Of a DNA stretch of 58,674 bases, positions 266 to 58,674 are shown one piece after another. The notes below the pieces were generated by a model. The model was given only the letters and a program-made list of their open reading frames with translations. It did no database searches and was not told where the DNA came from. The translations under genes were made by a program, and so were the position numbers. The DNA is from Candidatus Gastranaerophilales bacterium (GTDB lineage Bacteria > Cyanobacteriota > Vampirovibrionia > Gastranaerophilales > Gastranaerophilaceae): positions 1 through 58,674 of the forward strand of contig CALURR010000075.1 of the NCBI GenBank assembly GCA_944323195.1, written 5' to 3'. Numbering within the stretch: the first letter of the stretch is position 1; every line of letters begins with the position of its first letter.

Positions 266-2134
266 TTATAATTCTGTAACGCAACGAACAGAATTAGCAG
301 ATGAAACTCCACTATAGGAACATTTAAAATCAGTATTGTAAAGATAACAAAAAAAGTCAGAATGGGGAGTGCTCCATGCATAATCTGGTCTGCAATAATC
401 ATTGCCTGAACCTCGACAACTTTTTAAGGAGCCACATTCGGCTGCTAAATATTGCGAGCTCCAATGGCAAAGCTGTAATCCATTCACACCTTTACCAGTC
501 GAATTTGTTCCCCAATTAGACATTTCACTTGTTGTGGCTAAGCGCCAAGTATAACCTCCTGCGCTAAAATTTTTACAGATATAATCTGCGGCACTCCAAT
601 TGCAAACTGTTCTGTTACAGCCGGAATATCCACCGCCATTTTCATTATTGCAAGGCCTTGCAGTTGTACCTTTCCAACAACACTTATTTGAGCCTGAAGC
701 ATTGCAAGTCGAACCTACATTAACTACATTCACTCCACTTGGGATTGCAAGCGCTGTGCTATCACCCATGTTTCTCCTTGTAACACATAGACTTCCAATT
801 TGCATAAAATCGCTACCGGAACATGTAAAATCACTTTCACATGCCGGATTACCGCTTGAATTTGAGCTCATATGATACCCATCAGCACATTTTGTACAAA
901 ATGCCATATTGCATTCACTACAACTTGAACCAAATTTTGAAGCGCAATCAACAACGCATTTTCCATCTTTTAAAATATAACCGCTATCACAGGATAAACA
1001 AGTTGACCCATCGCAAGTCAAGCAGCCATCACCAAATCTATCAGCGCAACTTTGAGGCATGGATGAAACACAGCGCACCGAAACGGCGGACGTGCGAATG
1101 TTGGTATTCTGATTCCAACCACCATTAAGCAAGTAGTAAAAGTAAGCATAGGAAGAACTAAAAACAGTACCACTCCACACGATGTGCGGGCTGCACCAAT
1201 TACCCTTCGACCCTGGGCAACTAGTCGTAAAGTGACACTGAGCTGAAGAGTAACCTGAATAGTCGTCGCAAAGTTGAAGTCCGTTAACGCCTTTACCTTT
1301 AGAGTTATTTGCCCAATTAGACATTTCAGATGTTGTCGCTAAGCGCCAAGTATAGCCTCCTGCTTTGAAATTCTTACAAATATAATCAGCGGCATACCAT
1401 TCACAAACCGTTCTTGTACAACCGCTATAACCGCCGCCGTTTTCATTATCACAAGGACTTGCAGTTGTACCTTTCCAACAGCATAAATTGCTTGCACTTG
1501 GCGAACAACTTGTTCCTGCATTCACTACATTCACCCCGCTAGGTATAGTCAGTTTATCTCCATCACCCATGTTTTTCTTTGTAATACACAAAGACCCAAT
1601 TTGAATAAAATCATCTCCACCGCATTCAAAATTGGTACAAGGATTAGATGAAGTAGGATTTTCTAAAACATACCCATCTTTACAAGCTGCGCACTTATTC
1701 TCATCACAGCTTGTACAATTAGAAAATTTATTAGTACAGCTTTTACAACTTTCATCACTATTATCTAAATACTCTCCATTAGGACAGGTTAAACATTTAT
1801 TATCATTACATTTATTACAATCAGCTCCATATTTATCCACACACTTTTTACAACTACATGTCTTAGTATCTTTATATTCATCAACTCCACAAGATAATCC
1901 ACTACACACTATACAAAAATCATTGGTACATAATGTACAATTAGAACTAAATTTATCACATTCATTTGTAATATCACTAACAGAACCACCACCAGATCCA
2001 AATACACCAGATGAAAATTTCTTTGTTATTAATGGTGTAAAAGCAGCAGTTATACAGCTTATGATGATAAGCGAAATAAGTAATTCTACCAACGAAAAGC
2101 CATTTTTTTGGCATGATAAATGTTTGTGTTTCAT
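266..2134 (-). CDS. Cysteine-rich prepilin-like surface protein with two C-type-lectin-like domains (putative DGR target)
   Basis: This 622-residue protein begins with a type IV prepilin leader: cleavage is expected between G12 and F13, with Glu at mature position 5 and a hydrophobic helix to about residue 35. A Gly/Ser linker (about 42-52) leads to cysteine-rich furin/GCC2-like repeats (about 57-168). Next comes a C-type-lectin-like (FGE/DUF1566-like) domain (about 170-355), more Cys repeats (about 358-435) and a second lectin-like domain (about 437-622). Both lectin domains end in SVRCV. Residues 291-351 form the hypervariable block shared with the gene at 57218. The start has a weak GGGG Shine-Dalgarno. 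The gene is divergent from an XRE regulator. It is probably exported by type IV pilus-like machinery and displayed on the surface; the ligand is unknown. Confidence 0.85.
   Translation of the reverse strand: MKHKHLSCQKNGFSLVELLISLIIISCITAAFTPLITKKFSSGVFGSGGGSVSDITNECDKFSSNCTLCTNDFCIVCSGLSCGVDEYKDTKTCSCKKCVDKYGADCNKCNDNKCLTCPNGEYLDNSDESCKSCTNKFSNCTSCDENKCAACKDGYVLENPTSSNPCTNFECGGDDFIQIGSLCITKKNMGDGDKLTIPSGVNVVNAGTSCSPSASNLCCWKGTTASPCDNENGGGYSGCTRTVCEWYAADYICKNFKAGGYTWRLATTSEMSNWANNSKGKGVNGLQLCDDYSGYSSAQCHFTTSCPGSKGNWCSPHIVWSGTVFSSSYAYFYYLLNGGWNQNTNIRTSAVSVRCVSSMPQSCADRFGDGCLTCDGSTCLSCDSGYILKDGKCVVDCASKFGSSCSECNMAFCTKCADGYHMSSNSSGNPACESDFTCSGSDFMQIGSLCVTRRNMGDSTALAIPSGVNVVNVGSTCNASGSNKCCWKGTTARPCNNENGGGYSGCNRTVCNWSAADYICKNFSAGGYTWRLATTSEMSNWGTNSTGKGVNGLQLCHWSSQYLAAECGSLKSCRGSGNDYCRPDYAWSTPHSDFFCYLYNTDFKCSYSGVSSANSVRCVTEL
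557..617 (-). other. Part of the C-terminal lectin-like domain, 3' portion (possible second variable region)
   Basis: Residues 557-617 of the left prepilin-like protein lie at coordinates of about 281-466, not at the short coordinate span given here, which only marks part of the domain upstream of that segment. The segment follows the conserved GVNGLQLC and ends at SVRCV, exactly where the internal variable block sits in the first domain. Framework codons differ from that block (for example TCT GTT CGT against TCG GTG CGC), so it was not copied from the same template. It is at the very 3' end of the gene, the usual place for a DGR variable region. With only one copy visible, variability cannot be tested. 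Confidence 0.25.
1050..1081 (-). other. Invariant 32-nt block 3' of variable region 1 (IMH-like)
   Basis: Read on the minus strand, these 32 bases begin TCGGTGCGCTGTG and encode SVRCVSSMPQ. They are identical to 58247-58278 on the plus strand and directly follow the variable block in both genes. The block is GC-richer than the surrounding gene. Its position matches the initiation-of-mutagenic-homing site of known DGRs. The identity is seen directly; the function is inferred. Confidence 0.6.
1082..1264 (-). other. DGR-like variable region in the left prepilin-like gene
   Basis: This is a 183-base block (61 codons, residues 291-351) in the first lectin-like domain. Aligned without gaps to 58064-58246, it shows 38 substitutions in 25 codons. 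All change the amino acid; 36 of 38 are at codon positions 1 or 2, while third positions stay C or T (for example CAC/AAC, TTT/GAT, CTT/GGT, AAT/ACT). That is what adenine mutagenesis of AAY codons in a template repeat gives. Two codons (AAG/AGC and AAT/GGG) also change at position 3 and would need A there in the template. Confidence 0.8.
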
Positions 2135-2222: not shown

Positions 2223-2447
2223 ATGGATAAAGATATATTATTAAAGAAATTTGGGAAAAACGTAAAAATAGAGCGCATAAAAAAAGATCTTACACAAGAA
2301 CAACTTGCTGAAATCATGAATGTTTCACAAAACTATATTGCAAACATAGAAAGAGGCAAGGCAAACATGTCTTTAGCCAAAATATACGAACTATCAAAAT
2401 ATTTAAATGTAAATATTGAAAAATTATTGATTTTTAGTGAGAATTAA
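2223..2447 (+). CDS. XRE-family helix-turn-helix regulator (74 aa)
   Basis: A single Cro/CI-type DNA-binding domain fills the protein. Residues 22-44 form the helix-turn-helix (LTQEQLAEIMNVSQNYIANIERG). There is no ligand-binding or dimerisation domain. The gene is divergent from the cysteine-rich prepilin-like gene, and four inverted half-sites lie in the shared 88-base promoter, so autoregulation and control of the surface gene are likely. No Shine-Dalgarno is visible, because the last operator half-site abuts the ATG. It is only distantly similar to the XRE protein at 56723, although both have the same position relative to their prepilin-like gene. The 3' end overlaps the convergent Nudix gene by 14 bases. 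Confidence 0.85.
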   Translation: MDKDILLKKFGKNVKIERIKKDLTQEQLAEIMNVSQNYIANIERGKANMSLAKIYELSKYLNVNIEKLLIFSEN

Positions 2448-3012
2448 TTCTTAAAAGCGCATAATATACGCCGCAAACCAGTGCAGCTGCAACAGATATT
2501 TCATTTTGATTTATATTTTTTAGATATTTATCTATATTATCGACAGGAATAAAAAATCTATCTAAAATAATGCCTCCATCAGAAACAGGTTTTTGAATAA
2601 TATCATAAGAGTTGCAAATTGCTGTAATATATGTCAAAGTTTCGCTTGATAAACCTGCGCTTGTAGAGGAATTTTTTAATTCAATATACATCTCATCGGC
2701 AACAAGTCCCGCCTCTTCGAGCAACTCTTTTTTAGCGCATTCAATCAATGTTTCATCTTTGTCGTTATCCGCAATTAAACCTGCCGGAGATTCAAGGCAA
2801 TATTTTGCCTTATTTTCAGAAGAAATAGGCGGTCTATTTGTCTTAATAAATAAAAAATTATATTCACCATTTACTTTAACTAAAGTAGTTATAGCAACAG
2901 CACTATCGGTATTAGGTCTGTCATTGGTCCTTTTAACATAATACCAGTCATGACCTGATGGAGATAATGCAGATTTAAAATCTAAAAATTTAGTTGAATT
3001 AATTGTTGCCAT
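2434..3012 (-). CDS. Nudix hydrolase, ADP-ribose pyrophosphatase-like
   Basis: This 192-residue protein has a Nudix box at residues 78-104. It opens PAGL, has a three-residue insertion relative to the canonical spacing, then runs into the helix KKELLEEAGL, which carries the metal-binding glutamates. PAGL at the start of the box is typical of the ADP-ribose and nucleoside-diphosphate-sugar hydrolases, which cleave a diphosphate with Mg2+. The exact substrate cannot be read from sequence. The start overlaps the end of thiE by 14 bases, so the two are likely co-transcribed and translationally coupled. It is cytoplasmic, with no signal peptide. Confidence 0.75.
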   Translation of the reverse strand: MATINSTKFLDFKSALSPSGHDWYYVKRTNDRPNTDSAVAITTLVKVNGEYNFLFIKTNRPPISSENKAKYCLESPAGLIADNDKDETLIECAKKELLEEAGLVADEMYIELKNSSTSAGLSSETLTYITAICNSYDIIQKPVSDGGIILDRFFIPVDNIDKYLKNINQNEISVAAALVCGVYYALLRINSH

Positions 3013-4024
3013 GGTTTAATGCCTCACTAAATAATTTCACAGTCATATTTATATCACTTGAATCCATTAATGCTCTTATAGCTGCAACTTTTGTCGCACC
3101 TGCTTCTACAACTTTGAAGATATTATTTTCATCAATAGAACCAATGGCATAAAAAGGAATTCTAATATTATTTTTAACCCATTTTACATATTCTAGTCCA
3201 ACAGGATCGGTATTTGGTTTTGTTGGAGTTTTAAAAACAGGACCAACACCGATATAATCGGCATTATTATCTTGTGCAATAATTGCATCATCAGGCTTGT
3301 GAGTTGAAATTCCAATTATTTTATCATCCCCTAAGATTTTTCTTGCTGAATTTATATCTATATCATCTTGACCAAGATGAACACCATCAGCGTCAATAAT
3401 TTTAGCAATATCGACCCTATCATTTACAATTAAAAGAGCGTCATACATTGAACAAAGCTGACGAAGCTTTTTGCCGATTTTGATAATCTCTTGTGCAGTT
3501 TTATTTTTTTCCCTATATTGGATTAATTTTACTCCTGCATTTAAAATTTGAGCGATTTTATCAATAAATTCATCCTCACTTAAATTATTTTGTGAAGTTA
3601 TTAAATAAATATTTTTGTTATTCAATAATGCTTGTTTAATATTGGTTTTCTTTTCAGTATTTGCAATTTTCATAATCTCTTTTTCTATTTCATACATTTT
3701 ATATCTATAACAATCATTCAAAGACCCATATTCATTCAATACTCTAAGGGCTTGCTGTGTTCTTTTTATATTAGCTTTCACAACATCAGAATTTGATTGC
3801 TTTTTTGTTATATTTTCAATATTAACCCCAACATCATTTGTTGTATCACGAGAGTTAACCAATTTGTCATAAATAGGCTCAAAAAACATTGTAATCTGGT
3901 GACGCAGATTTTTCAATTCTTTTGATATATCTTTATTGTTTAAAACAAATCTGGTATATTCCTCGATATTTCTAAGCCCTTCACAAGCCCTATTTAAATT
4001 AGCATCTATTATTCTAAAGTACAT
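2999..4024 (-). CDS. thiE: Thiamine-phosphate synthase with N-terminal extra domain
   Basis: The C-terminal part (about 130-341) is a TIM-barrel ThiE, which joins the pyrimidine and thiazole phosphates into thiamine monophosphate. GVHLGQ, IGISTH and the phosphate-binding GVGPVF followed by TPTKP are all present. The N-terminal 125 residues, starting MYFRIIDANLNRACEGLRNI, are the helical domain found fused to ThiE in cyanobacteria and some Bacteroidetes (I recall it as the ThiD2 family, proposed to act on pyrimidine phosphate). At 341 residues it is well above the roughly 210 of plain ThiE. No thiC, thiG or thiD is nearby, and I see no TPP riboswitch in the 69-base upstream gap. Confidence 0.9.
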   Translation of the reverse strand: MYFRIIDANLNRACEGLRNIEEYTRFVLNNKDISKELKNLRHQITMFFEPIYDKLVNSRDTTNDVGVNIENITKKQSNSDVVKANIKRTQQALRVLNEYGSLNDCYRYKMYEIEKEIMKIANTEKKTNIKQALLNNKNIYLITSQNNLSEDEFIDKIAQILNAGVKLIQYREKNKTAQEIIKIGKKLRQLCSMYDALLIVNDRVDIAKIIDADGVHLGQDDIDINSARKILGDDKIIGISTHKPDDAIIAQDNNADYIGVGPVFKTPTKPNTDPVGLEYVKWVKNNIRIPFYAIGSIDENNIFKVVEAGATKVAAIRALMDSSDINMTVKLFSEALNHGNN

Positions 4025-51907: not shown

Positions 51908-52288
51908 TTAAAAGTTTATCATTCTTTTTATTTTTTTTAAAACAGTTTTAAAATTATTTTCTTTTTTGGAAATTAAATCATCCTGATTATACTTCAAATA
52001 TCTTTCAATGATATTCTTGGGCAAACTGTGATTTTCTTTTAAGATTTGAGAAATTTCAGCCAAAAAATCATCCTGCACCAGCGCATAGTCCTTAATCTTT
52101 TTTCTCAAATCTTCATCAGCTTCCCTATAAACTAAAGCATCAAAAGCACATTTAATGCTTACATCAACAGAATCATCCGGAAAAGACAAAAGTGCCTGCT
52201 GAACAGTTTTTTTATTACACAAGACCTCATTAATTAAATCAGATACTAAAAGTCTATCTTGATAAATTTTAAGTTTTTCACTCTCCAT
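51908..52288 (-). CDS. Unknown 126-residue protein upstream of rsmH
   Basis: No family is recognised. It is predicted to be all helical, with charged segments and a Lys-rich C-terminus. The central part reads ALVYREADEDLRKKIKDYAL and the N-terminal part KIYQDRLLVSDLINEVL. There is no signal or membrane segment. It starts seven bases after the BlaI-like regulator gene ends and stops two bases before rsmH, so it is likely co-transcribed with the division genes. It occupies the usual mraZ place but does not resemble MraZ, which is beta-rich. Confidence 0.6.
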   Translation of the reverse strand: MESEKLKIYQDRLLVSDLINEVLCNKKTVQQALLSFPDDSVDVSIKCAFDALVYREADEDLRKKIKDYALVQDDFLAEISQILKENHSLPKNIIERYLKYNQDDLISKKENNFKTVLKKIKRMINF

Positions 52289-52295
52289 TTAAATA

Positions 52296-52649
52296 CTATA
52301 CACTAACCAAGCGGTCATTATCAATTGTATTTAAAATTTTTGAAACTTGAGATAAACTTCCGTTACAATATCTATTAGCAATTTCTTGCAATGAATTTAT
52401 AACAACTTCATCGTTAGAAAAAGCTGTTCTATAGAAAAACTTTTTACCTTGCTTATATCTTAATAACACGTTTTTTTCAAACAATCTGTCCATAACAGTT
52501 TTAATTGTTGTGTATGCTCTTTTTTCGGTGTTATTTTTTGCCAGAATATCATAAACATCTTTAACGGTATTAGTCATAATTCCGTCTTTTTCTAGATCCC
52601 AAAGGGTGCTTAATATCGCACTTTCAAGACTTCCGTGCTTAGATAACAT
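52296..52649 (-). CDS. BlaI/MecI/CopY-family repressor
   Basis: The 117-residue protein is a winged helix with the family pattern ILSTLWDLEKDGIMTNTVKD (about 12-31), then KRAYTTIKTVMDRLFEKNVL (about 44-63) and the wing YKQGKKFFYR. The family represses beta-lactamase, PBP2a or copper genes and is released by a BlaR-type protease. No protease or beta-lactamase gene is nearby. Within this run it may regulate the envelope cluster. An AGGA Shine-Dalgarno is present. It lies 26 bases downstream of the lipoprotein gene. Confidence 0.85.
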   Translation of the reverse strand: MLSKHGSLESAILSTLWDLEKDGIMTNTVKDVYDILAKNNTEKRAYTTIKTVMDRLFEKNVLLRYKQGKKFFYRTAFSNDEVVINSLQEIANRYCNGSLSQVSKILNTIDNDRLVSV

Positions 52650-54767: not shown

Positions 54768-54796
54768 TTGACAAGAGACAAAACACACAATATAAT
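54768..54796 (+). promoter_or_regulatory. Consensus sigma-70 promoter of the pilin gene
   Basis: TTGACA (54768-54773), a 17-base spacer and TATAAT (54791-54796) match the sigma-70 consensus exactly. Transcription should start near 54803, giving a leader of about 38 bases with AAGGAAG before the ATG. It predicts high expression. Confidence 0.9.
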
Positions 54797-54840
54797 TGAA
54801 ACAAGATAGAAATTTATTAGTTTACAAAGGAAGTATTACT

Positions 54841-55599
54841 ATGAGACTTAAAAAGGGTTTTACATTAGCAGAAATCTTGATTGTATTAATGGTTATCGGT
54901 GCCATTGCAACAATGACAATCCCATCATTAATGAAAGGTGTTACAGAGTCACAATGGAAAACTGCTTACAAAAAAGCATATAATGCAGTTGTTAACTTGA
55001 CAGCAATGGAAAGAATTGCAGGTCAACTACCTTCTACACCAGACAAAACTGGCGTAGGTAAAATGTTCCAATCATTAAACCAAAACCTAGCAATTAAAGA
55101 TTACGCTGCTGCACCTGCATCAATATCAGACGCAGAACCAACTTATACAGCTTCACAATTTAAATCTGCAATCCAATTTAGCGTTGCAACTTCAAGCGAT
55201 CAAGCTGAAACTCCTGCAGAAGGCGACGATACAGGTGAAACACTTAATGCTGGAACAATTGGTGATATTTCACCATGGATTACAACTGATGATAACATTT
55301 CATATTTGGTTACAAAACCAGCTGGAAGCGGCACTTGCTCTACAAAACTTGAAATCAATTCAGCTGGTGCAGATGCTGATGCGCAAGCAAAAGCATGTGT
55401 TATCGTTGTTGTTGACGTTAACGGTTTAACTAACGGACCAAACAAAATTGAACCTCAAATCTCATCAACATTAGATGCTTCAACTTCATTGAGCTCATTA
55501 ACAGGTGACAGATATTACATCTACATCGGTATAGATGGAGCTACTGCTGGTTCTAAAAAATCAACAGTTACAGGCAGAATTGTTTCTGACTTGAAATAA
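54841..55599 (+). CDS. Type IV pilin-like protein, probably abundant
   Basis: The 252 residues begin MRLKKG then F, the prepilin cleavage site, with Glu at mature position 5 (FTLAEILIVLMVIGAIATM) and a hydrophobic helix to about residue 28. A helical stretch SQWKTAYKKAYNAVVNLTAM follows, then a Ser/Ala/Asp-rich globular part with two cysteines near residues 176 and 195. I start it at ATG 54841, because the in-frame start at 54796 lies in the -10 element. It has the best promoter of the window and a clean terminator, which suits a major pilin or pseudopilin. No pilus assembly gene is nearby. Confidence 0.88.
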   Translation: MRLKKGFTLAEILIVLMVIGAIATMTIPSLMKGVTESQWKTAYKKAYNAVVNLTAMERIAGQLPSTPDKTGVGKMFQSLNQNLAIKDYAAAPASISDAEPTYTASQFKSAIQFSVATSSDQAETPAEGDDTGETLNAGTIGDISPWITTDDNISYLVTKPAGSGTCSTKLEINSAGADADAQAKACVIVVVDVNGLTNGPNKIEPQISSTLDASTSLSSLTGDRYYIYIGIDGATAGSKKSTVTGRIVSDLK

Positions 55600-56722: not shown

Positions 56723-57052
56723 TTACTTATTAAAAGTAAACCTCAAAGCCAAAAACAATTCGTAAAAAACCTTTAACATATCTTCATCATCGTTAAATGC
56801 GCTTAATAATTCCTCTTTCATTTGTTCAGGTGTTTTATTGTCGTTAAATTTATAGAGCTCATAAGGTTCAACATTTAATGCTTGCGCGATTTTCTGCAAT
56901 GTATCAATCGAAGGAGCAAACTTGCCATTTTCAATATAACTAATATTGGGTGTCCCTATATTTACAAACTCGGCTAACTGTTCTTGGGTTAAATTTCTAG
57001 CCTTTCTTATTGTTTTAATCCTGTTACCTAAAAGTTTTTTAAGATCACTCAT
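56723..57052 (-). CDS. XRE-family regulator (109 aa) paired with the right prepilin-like gene
   Basis: A Cro/CI-type helix-turn-helix occupies residues 1-65, with LTQEQLAEFVNIGTPNISYI as the recognition unit. The C-terminal 40 residues form an acidic helix (EQMKEELLSAFNDDEDMLKV) that the left XRE protein lacks. The Shine-Dalgarno AAGGAG is well placed. It is divergent from the prepilin-like gene at 57218, matching the arrangement at the left end, but the two XRE proteins are only distantly related. An ATAGTATG/CATACTAT inverted pair (57103-57110 and 57163-57170) in the gap could be its operator. Confidence 0.85.
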   Translation of the reverse strand: MSDLKKLLGNRIKTIRKARNLTQEQLAEFVNIGTPNISYIENGKFAPSIDTLQKIAQALNVEPYELYKFNDNKTPEQMKEELLSAFNDDEDMLKVFYELFLALRFTFNK

Positions 57053-57217: not shown

Positions 57218-58674
57218 TTGAAACACGGATTCTCATTAATTGAGCTGTTAATAAGCTTAATTGTAATTTCTTGTATAACTGCTGCTTTTACACCATTGAT
57301 TACAAAGAAATTTTCATCTGGTGTATTTGGATCTGGTGGTGGTTCTGTTAGTGATATTACAAATGAATGCGATAAATTTAGTTCTAATTGTACATTATGT
57401 ACCAGTGATTTTTGTATAGTGTGTAGTGGATTGTCTTGTGGAGTTGATGAATATAAAGATACTAAGACATGTAGTTGTAAGAAGTGTTCTGATAAATATG
57501 GAGCTGATTGTAATAAATGTAATGATAATAAATGTTTAACTTGTCCTGATGGAGAGTATTTAGATAGTAGTGATGAAAGTTGTAAAAAGTGTTCTGATAA
57601 ATTTCCTGATTGTACAAGTTGCGATGAGAATAAATGCACAGCTTGTAAAGATGGGTATGTTTTAGAAAATCCTACTTCATCTAATCCTTGTACCAATTTT
57701 GAGTGTGGTGGAGATGATTTTATTCAAATTGGGGATTTATGTATTACAAAGAAAAACATGGGTGATGGGGATAAATTGACTATTCCTAGTGGGGTTAATG
57801 TAGTAAGCACCGGTCAAAATTGCGATGCTTCAAGTTCAAATAAATGCTGTTGGAAAGGTACAACAGCAAGTTCTTGTAATAATGATAATGGCGGTGGTTA
57901 CAGTGGTTGCACCAGAACCGTTTGTGATTGGTGGGCTGCTGATTATATTTGTAAGAATTTCAAAGCAGGAGGCTATACTTGGCGCTTAGCTACCGAAGAT
58001 GAAATGTCTAATTGGGCAAATAATTCTAAAGGTAAAGGCGTTAATGGTCTACAACTTTGCGACAACACTTCAGGTTACTCTTCAGCTCAGTGTAACGATA
58101 CGGGTAGTTGCCCAGGGTCGAGCTTTGGGTATTGCTACCCGAACAACGTGTGGAGTGGTACTGTTTATGGTTCTTCCTATGCTTACTATTACCACTTGGG
58201 TAGTGGTGGTTGGAGTCAGACTTACTACTATCGCACGTACGCCCGTTCGGTGCGCTGTGTTTCATCCATGCCTCAAAGCTGCGCTGATAAAATTAGCGAC
58301 GGGTGTTTGACTTGCAGTGGGTCAACTTGTCTATCATGTGATACAGGCTACATCTTAAAAGATGGAAAATGTAGTGTTGATTGCGCTTCAAAATTTGGTT
58401 CAACTTGTAGTGAGTGCAATATGACACAATGTACAAAATGTGCTGATGGATATAGTTTAACAAATGGAACTTGCGTTAATAATTGCACAACAAAATTTGG
58501 CGAAAATTGTCTATCTTGCAATGAAACAAGTTGCACATTGTGCAAAAACGGATATACTGCATACTCTTGGGGTTGCGCAAATAACGTATGCAAAGATATG
58601 GAAGGATGTTTAGAGTGTTATGACTGTTTTATAGGAGAAAGTTGCAAAACTTGCGGTAACGGTTATGAAATACA
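57218..58674 (+). CDS. Cysteine-rich prepilin-like surface protein, 3' end outside the window (putative DGR target)
   Basis: Translation starts at TTG 57218, four bases past AAGGAGG, and the frame is open for 485 codons to the window edge. The leader is MKHG with cleavage before F and Glu at mature position 5. Cys-rich repeats follow, then one lectin-like domain (about 161-349) with the variable block at residues 283-343, then more Cys repeats. From codon 19 (57272) to about 58455 it is highly similar to the left gene (about 97% over the first 210 bases by eye), whereas its first 54 bases, promoter and XRE partner differ. Its C-terminal plan also differs: more Cys repeats replace the second lectin domain. 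Confidence 0.85.
   Translation, partial: MKHGFSLIELLISLIVISCITAAFTPLITKKFSSGVFGSGGGSVSDITNECDKFSSNCTLCTSDFCIVCSGLSCGVDEYKDTKTCSCKKCSDKYGADCNKCNDNKCLTCPDGEYLDSSDESCKKCSDKFPDCTSCDENKCTACKDGYVLENPTSSNPCTNFECGGDDFIQIGDLCITKKNMGDGDKLTIPSGVNVVSTGQNCDASSSNKCCWKGTTASSCNNDNGGGYSGCTRTVCDWWAADYICKNFKAGGYTWRLATEDEMSNWANNSKGKGVNGLQLCDNTSGYSSAQCNDTGSCPGSSFGYCYPNNVWSGTVYGSSYAYYYHLGSGGWSQTYYYRTYARSVRCVSSMPQSCADKISDGCLTCSGSTCLSCDTGYILKDGKCSVDCASKFGSTCSECNMTQCTKCADGYSLTNGTCVNNCTTKFGENCLSCNETSCTLCKNGYTAYSWGCANNVCKDMEGCLECYDCFIGESCKTCGNGYEI
58064..58246 (+). other. DGR-like variable region in the right prepilin-like gene
   Basis: This is the 183-base partner of 1082-1264 (minus strand), encoding residues 283-343. 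Between the copies there is no indel, every changed codon alters the residue, and changes cluster at the first two bases of codons ending in C or T. Many right-copy codons are AAC, TAC or TAT. Framework codons such as TGG AGT GGT ACT are identical down to the third base, unlike the flanking parts of the genes. Confidence 0.8.
58247..58278 (+). other. Invariant 32-nt block 3' of the right variable region (IMH-like)
   Basis: It is identical to 1050-1081 on the minus strand. It ends where the two genes again differ at third positions (AGC against AGT). This places the edge of the homogenised segment, as expected at the 3' end of a mutagenic homing tract. Confidence 0.6.

Follow-up and report, generated by a model that had tools for sequence, protein, structure and literature searches.

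The stretch of DNA analysed here (the window, 58,674 nucleotides) is the entire contig C75 of a Gastranaerophilales MAG of 1.71 Mb in 131 contigs. It contains two modular prepilin genes, each with a divergent regulator gene upstream and a repeat homologous to a template repeat on contig C47 of the same genome. The features of the two genes are listed below with their coordinates in the window and strands.

266..2134 (-): target gene 1, a modular prepilin of 622 aa
2042..2107 (-): prepilin N-terminal methylation motif (GFSLVELL...) of target gene 1
1067..1624 (-): lectin (Lcl_C / DUF1566-like) domain carrying variable repeat 1; C-type-lectin fold predicted, pLDDT 94.6
1068..1275 (-): variable repeat 1 (VR 1), homologous to the template repeat C47:2799-3006; 21 of 26 differences at template A
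278..823 (-): second, C-terminal lectin domain of target gene 1; tail without a template match, not a current target
2223..2447 (+): divergent XRE-type (HTH_3) regulator gene, 74 aa, upstream of target gene 1
57218..58674 (+): target gene 2, a modular prepilin truncated at the contig end
57221..57286 (+): prepilin N-terminal methylation motif of target gene 2
57704..58261 (+): lectin domain carrying variable repeat 2
58053..58260 (+): variable repeat 2 (VR 2); 21 of 28 differences to the template at template A
56723..57052 (-): divergent XRE-type (HTH_3) regulator gene, 109 aa, upstream of target gene 2

Target gene 1 encodes, in order, a pilin N-terminus, Cys-rich repeats, the lectin domain with VR 1, further Cys-rich repeats and the second lectin domain. 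An additional gene with a prepilin methylation motif, without a variable repeat, was found near target gene 2 (54796-55599, +).

The initial annotation, made from the sequence alone, had described both genes as prepilin-like with a C-type-lectin fold. The first assignment held, since PF07963 and TIGR02532 matched above cut-off in both genes; the second held with PF07603 above cut-off for one gene and a confident structure model. It had also reported a gapless alignment of 183 bases between 1082-1264 (-) and 58064-58246 (+), with 38 substitutions in 25 of 61 codons, all of them non-synonymous and 26 with A in one copy. These counts were confirmed by recount, and the blocks are in frame in both ORFs. 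Its figure of 36 substitutions at codon positions 1 or 2 was off by one and its two third-position changes are three, the recount giving 16, 19 and 3 substitutions at codon positions 1, 2 and 3, respectively (35 at the first two).

The regions around the block behave differently. The changed codons comprised 9 synonymous and 4 non-synonymous ones in the upstream flank (153 bases), and 11 synonymous and 8 non-synonymous ones in the downstream flank (180 bases), giving 20 and 12 over the 111 codons of both flanks. The flanks thus behave like ordinary diverged paralogues. Because no synonymous change is present inside the block while 20 codons of the flanks changed synonymously, the block does not behave as a stretch of this kind. 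The repeats as defined by the template are slightly longer than the 183-base block, as given in the list.

The DGR core on contig C47 and its variable repeats

A dozen relatives of the 183-base block were returned by a search of the window genome. Contig C47 carries, in order, a prepilin-lectin gene fragment (1-846), Avd (1059-1487), a reverse transcriptase (RT, 1502-2647), the template repeat and an intrinsic terminator. The template repeat (at about 2799-3006) lies outside any prepilin gene, ~150 bases past the intact RT ORF, with the terminator ~60 bases beyond it (at about 3066-3092), and 20 of its 68 codons are AAY. The RT contains the motifs IGNLTSQ and YVDD, which is the pattern of diversity-generating retroelements (DGRs; [ILV]GxxxSQ, YxDD). 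It is 42% identical to phage RTs, and its closest solved structure is 8ub7 (E 7e-30), which we take to be the BPP-1 RT. The Avd ORF matched PF22296 (Pfam, 7e-9), NF033474 (NCBIfam, 9e-11) and phrog_3206, 'Avd protein of DGR' (PHROGs, 3e-18), the scores for the first two being below the curated cut-offs; a sequence search found no solved structural relative of it. No DGR RNA family was detected by an Rfam search of C47 and the window. A second RT of the window genome (C26; L019:2492-3370) is retron-like (RT_VI 4.5e-56) and was rejected as a part of the DGR.

Ten variable repeats were compared with the template, leaving out the RT-linked repeat on C47. Changes were found at 203 of 556 template adenines and at 47 of 1449 other bases (odds ratio 17, p ~8e-81), and every change at a template A in these repeats falls at codon position 1 or 2. 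One third of the 47 non-A changes are accounted for by a template site that has itself changed and by a codon near the 3' end, and 9 of the 47 are a single site with C in the repeats and T in the template. Of the 38 sites that differ between the two window blocks, 29 have A in the template (p = 1.2e-9 against the template A content).

The claim that both window genes are targets of one DGR template was therefore upheld, with the template, RT and Avd on one contig of the same genome; the absence of a template repeat or RT genome-wide had been named as grounds for refutation, and the genome search found both, ~150 bases apart. The expectation of a template with A at all 38 variable sites failed. 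So did the proposal that the third-position changes require an A there in the template, as a third-position template A is mutated in no repeat. Outside the view of that annotation were the 11 variable repeats instead of two, their occurrence several per protein, the paired regulators and the cassette arrays of relatives.

The repeats differ in how recently they appear to have been rewritten. Over its 154 bases, the C106 repeat differs from the template by 11 A changes only, and it is the sole repeat with the template-specific T. Since it alone has this base of the present template and differs by A changes only, it was likely rewritten after the template itself had mutated. The RT-linked repeat (C47:604-833) has 24 non-A changes; it seems stale, the most so of all the repeats.

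DGR RTs were found in 40 of 288 family genomes (14 of 41 genera), and all family targets with a readable start are prepilins. Plain self-BLAST missed most template/repeat pairs in the relatives, and more were recovered by a diagonal scan tolerating mismatches at template A. The templates of genomes G017 and G008 have diverged from that of the window genome (87% identity). Full-length G008 repeats mostly have 3-10 non-A differences to their own template and 18-24 to that of the window genome; for the G017 cassette repeat, the non-A differences were 2 and 18, respectively. The repeats of these genomes track their own diverged template. In template/repeat pairs of more distant relatives, the ratios of A to other differences were 19:1, 16:1, 8:0, 15:1 and 17:0.

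Some relatives have unusual template regions. G008 has tandem template repeats with an identical upstream flank (C12:51825-52083 and 52255-52517, -). The second was rejected as an active template, as no G008 repeat follows it, and it may be a spare or overwritten copy. In G022, the sequence at the template position (L100:6818-7030, -) has lost most AAY codons and resembles a variable repeat, so that an overwritten template is possible. G027, of the same genus and 99% complete, has template-like variable repeats (L058, L059, L060), and no DGR RT was found in it; these may be orphaned targets.

The first alternative is that the lectin domains are paralogues shaped by positive selection and gene conversion, without any retroelement. 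In its support, the paralogy of the genes is clear, their flanks have diverged, and rapid evolution is common in surface lectins. Against this, an RT-Avd-template cassette is present in the genome, the changes are tied to the adenines of an independent template sequence with the odds ratio of 17, synonymous changes are missing only inside the template-matching block, and the repeats of relatives follow their own templates. This alternative is all but excluded. The cassette, the adenine bias and the remote targets are established, and we conclude with high confidence that a chromosomal multi-target DGR with its core on C47 accounts for 1082-1264 and 58064-58246, which are two of its variable repeats.

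The second alternative is that this DGR is now dead and the repeats are fossils of earlier rewriting. In its favour are the several non-A changes in some repeats, including the 24 in the RT-linked one, the presence of such repeats in G027 without an RT, and the G022 template-position sequence without its AAY codons. However, both the RT, with its catalytic motifs, and Avd have intact reading frames, the template retains its 20 AAY codons, and the C106 repeat carries the newest template base without any non-A change. We consider a dead element unlikely; present-day activity nevertheless remains an inference, as no read or population data were available.

In the reading of a functional DGR, the template RNA would be copied by the RT with Avd, with misincorporation opposite adenines, and the cDNA, guided by the invariant 3' end (TCGGTGCGCTGTGT), would home in trans to the lectin tails of the prepilin genes. 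As 20 codons of the template read AAY, mutations are confined to codon positions 1-2, no stop codons arise and up to 15 residues per codon are possible. The theoretical repertoire is 15^20, or ~3e23 combinations.

The type system is the DGR of Bordetella phage BPP-1 (mtd, avd, bRT, TR; PMC3240598). Both systems have Avd, an RT with the SQ motif and YVDD, an AAY-rich template, adenine-specific changes, an invariant 3' end and a C-type-lectin target. Unlike in BPP-1, the C47 template follows the RT, the targets are chromosomal prepilins (at least 7 genes, 11 repeats), most of them remote from the cassette, and most repeats are internal and not at the protein end.

Target prepilins, their lectin domains and their regulators

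In the window genome, 11 variable repeats are distributed over at least seven genes for type IV prepilins, with up to two per protein. The gene counts are minima since the assembly is fragmented and target genes lie at contig ends, as expected of variable repeats; the two fragments that lack a 5' end (C83, C47) could be parts of genes truncated at other places. The prepilin methylation motif was present in all seven repeat-bearing genes with an assembled 5' end, and it also starts the repeat-bearing genes found in G022, G002, G224, G184 and G245, which represent five further genera or species. A prepilin peptidase (PF01478, C27) and several pilus-type ATPases (PF00437, C71 and others) are encoded in the window genome. 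The prepilin signals are established, while assembly of the products into a pilus is inferred.

The targets consist of a pilin helix, Cys-rich repeats, a lectin domain, more Cys-rich repeats and additional lectin domains. Of the three lectin domains in the C115 protein, two carry variable repeats, and C83 encodes two variable-repeat lectin domains. Proteins of ~660-1100 aa with three to four complete tandem lectin domains were observed in G022 (L194, L195) and G009 (L199).

The variable repeat is located in the C-terminal half of the lectin domain. The domain was modelled by AlphaFold with 33 diverse homologues (pLDDT 94.6, pTM 0.92), replacing a run with a narrow alignment that gave a poor model (pLDDT 58). 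Structurally, the model best matched the C-terminal domain of Legionella Lcl and Bd2740 of Bdellovibrio (probability 1.00 in Foldseek; Z 9.2 and 9.6, respectively), followed by many C-type lectins; Lcl itself is C-type-lectin-like (PMC11162425). A search of the domain sequence against solved structures gave no meaningful match, and the Foldseek E-values were modest (best 1.3e-3). The predicted fold nevertheless agrees with the Lcl_C sequence match, and the prediction of a C-type-lectin fold for the variable domain is a confident one. The products would be modular type IV pilin-like proteins exposing one to three lectin domains outside the cell. That these domains bind ligands, probably on host, diet or neighbour surfaces, is inferred.

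The divergent XRE-type genes of the window begin 121 and 174 bases from the prepilin motif of targets 1 and 2, respectively. The targets on C65 and C106 also have a divergent XRE-type gene and that on C115 a divergent S24/CI-like gene, so that, among the six targets whose upstream region could be read, five are each paired with a divergent regulator of the repressor type. The C44 target has no divergent regulator upstream, and the C30 target abuts the contig end, leaving its upstream region unreadable. A profile search of ~130 kb of the window genome detected four XRE genes, all four beside target genes, and both of those found within the 58.7-kb window flank the two targets. This search is not a clean statistic, as the stretches were picked for their repeats and the profile was partly built from these proteins. 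The pairing was also found in G008 (three genes), G017, G138 and G022, and is established. The regulators of different target prepilins are unlike one another. Separate XRE/CI-type regulators probably switch each target individually; this role is inferred.

Remote targets, and targets with several repeats in one protein, are already known for DGRs (PMC4891356, PMC7517822, PMC10907252, PMC6642488), and DUF1566 DGR targets with pilin-like parts were mentioned earlier (PMC6642488). The DGRs of Treponema denticola and cyanobacteria (PMC4891356, PMC7517822) likewise serve several dispersed lectin-fold targets from one cassette, but those targets are lipoproteins or mostly cytosolic kinase fusions, whereas here they are type IV prepilins with paired regulators. 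The DGRs of Thiohalocapsa PB-PSB1 (PMC10907252) share several repeats per protein, action in trans and natural multi-target use; they comprise nine cassettes and conflict-system proteins (15 targets, 21 repeats), compared with one template, 11 repeats and pilin-like proteins in the window genome. Bacteroides type V tip pilin DGRs (cited in PMC12632263) also place a pilus-borne variable binding domain in gut bacteria, but these pilins are lipoproteins of another fold, while the window targets have N-terminal type IV prepilin signals and Cys-rich stalks. The modular type IV pilin PilB of Streptococcus sanguinis (PMC8179133) similarly has a pilin helix followed by an adhesive module, which in the window genome is hypervariable and may occur up to three times.

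No DGR paper on this lineage was found in the literature searched, the coverage of which was incomplete. The window DGR is a known type of system with an unusual target set. With it, the uncultured Gastranaerophilales of the gut could hypervary an entire repertoire of pilus-borne lectins from one template, and with per-gene repressor-type regulators both adhesin sequence and adhesin choice could vary.

Cassette arrays in three related genomes

The lectin-domain search showed that some relatives have far more tail segments than genes. Such arrays were found in only three of 278 genomes (G119, G063 and G092, of two lineages), with ~20 to 70 headless, template-like cassettes each and an intact DGR RT in all three; on the RT tree the trait requires two changes. 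In G119, 31-33 headless cassettes of ~210-230 bases each lie 3 kb from the RT (C1:341284-350004), with a near-constant 3' end (TCGGYTCGCTGTGTCC), short related spacers and a median pairwise identity of ~56%. A terminator-like hairpin was found past the last cassette. G063 has ~68 cassette ends over five contigs (C80, C57, C47, C95, C88) and G092 has ~20 cassettes. The cassettes share the fixed exchange ends, CTTTG-GAC to CGCTGTGT, with the template and variable repeats of the window genome. AAY codons make up 5% of codons in G119 cassettes, 4% in G063 and 19% in G092, against 36% in the window-genome template. We rejected the idea that one AAY template gave rise to the G119 cassettes, as only 63% of third bases are pyrimidine; it is also contradicted by the common occurrence of lysine, glutamine, glutamate and methionine.

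In G119, the prepilin gene located between the RT and the array carries a copy of a single cassette, bounded precisely by the cassette ends. The copy matches its donor at 212 of 215 bases, with the next best cassette at 75%. In both substitutions the donor has A and the copy T. The copy also lacks one base at the 3' end, so that in this assembly the Gly-rich C-terminal part is not in frame. The RT-linked prepilin of G063 is truncated at a contig end within the repeat, and what remains is identical to one C47 cassette of that genome except for one donor A to C. In G092, 22 bases remain ahead of the constant 3' end, and they match a C158 cassette without a difference. The copies at the expression sites of G063 and G092 are thus partial. 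All three copy/donor substitutions of G119 and G063 are at donor A (chance ~0.007), or 0.03 without one of the G119 substitutions, which sits in the 3' end where T is already usual among cassettes. This result rests on too few events to decide between RT and recombination.

Because of the fixed ends, the linkage to the RT and the three of three changes at donor A, we read the arrays as a DGR fed by a template library; the evidence for RT involvement is suggestive and not decisive, and the mechanism is inferred. A serious rival is that silent cassettes enter the expressed pilin by ordinary recombination, vls- or pilS-like, with the RT uninvolved. It is supported by the G119 and G063 cassettes not being AAY-rich and by the almost exact G119 copy. 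On the other hand, every array genome has an intact DGR RT and the copy-carrying pilin is RT-linked, whole cassettes are swapped with the same fixed ends as the template and repeats of the window genome, the copy/donor substitutions are all at donor A, and the G092 cassettes are AAY-rich. On balance we lean slightly against ordinary recombination.

A bolder form of the library reading, for and against which we find the case evenly weighted, is that two opposite DGR layouts exist in one gut family, the library form having arisen at least twice (in G119, and in G063 with G092). In one layout, that of the window genome, a single template would serve many pilin-lectin genes. In the other, ~20 to 70 stored cassettes would serve one RT-linked pilin gene, and the RT would pick among archived templates and add adenine mutations. 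If this is true, one system would combine a mutator with a memory of binding sites that have already been tested, adenine-mutating retroelements and silent-cassette archives, which are treated as separate, would be joined, and a DGR memory of useful binding sites would become directly testable.

No DGR with a template array was described in the literature searched (coverage incomplete), and the cassette-library layout would be new. The vls system of Borrelia (PMC11499132) resembles the arrays in having one expression site and contiguous headless silent cassettes. Borrelia vls works by segmental conversion among cassettes of ~90% identity, whereas the arrays of the relatives involve whole cassettes, mostly of ~55% identity, with fixed ends and linkage to a DGR RT.
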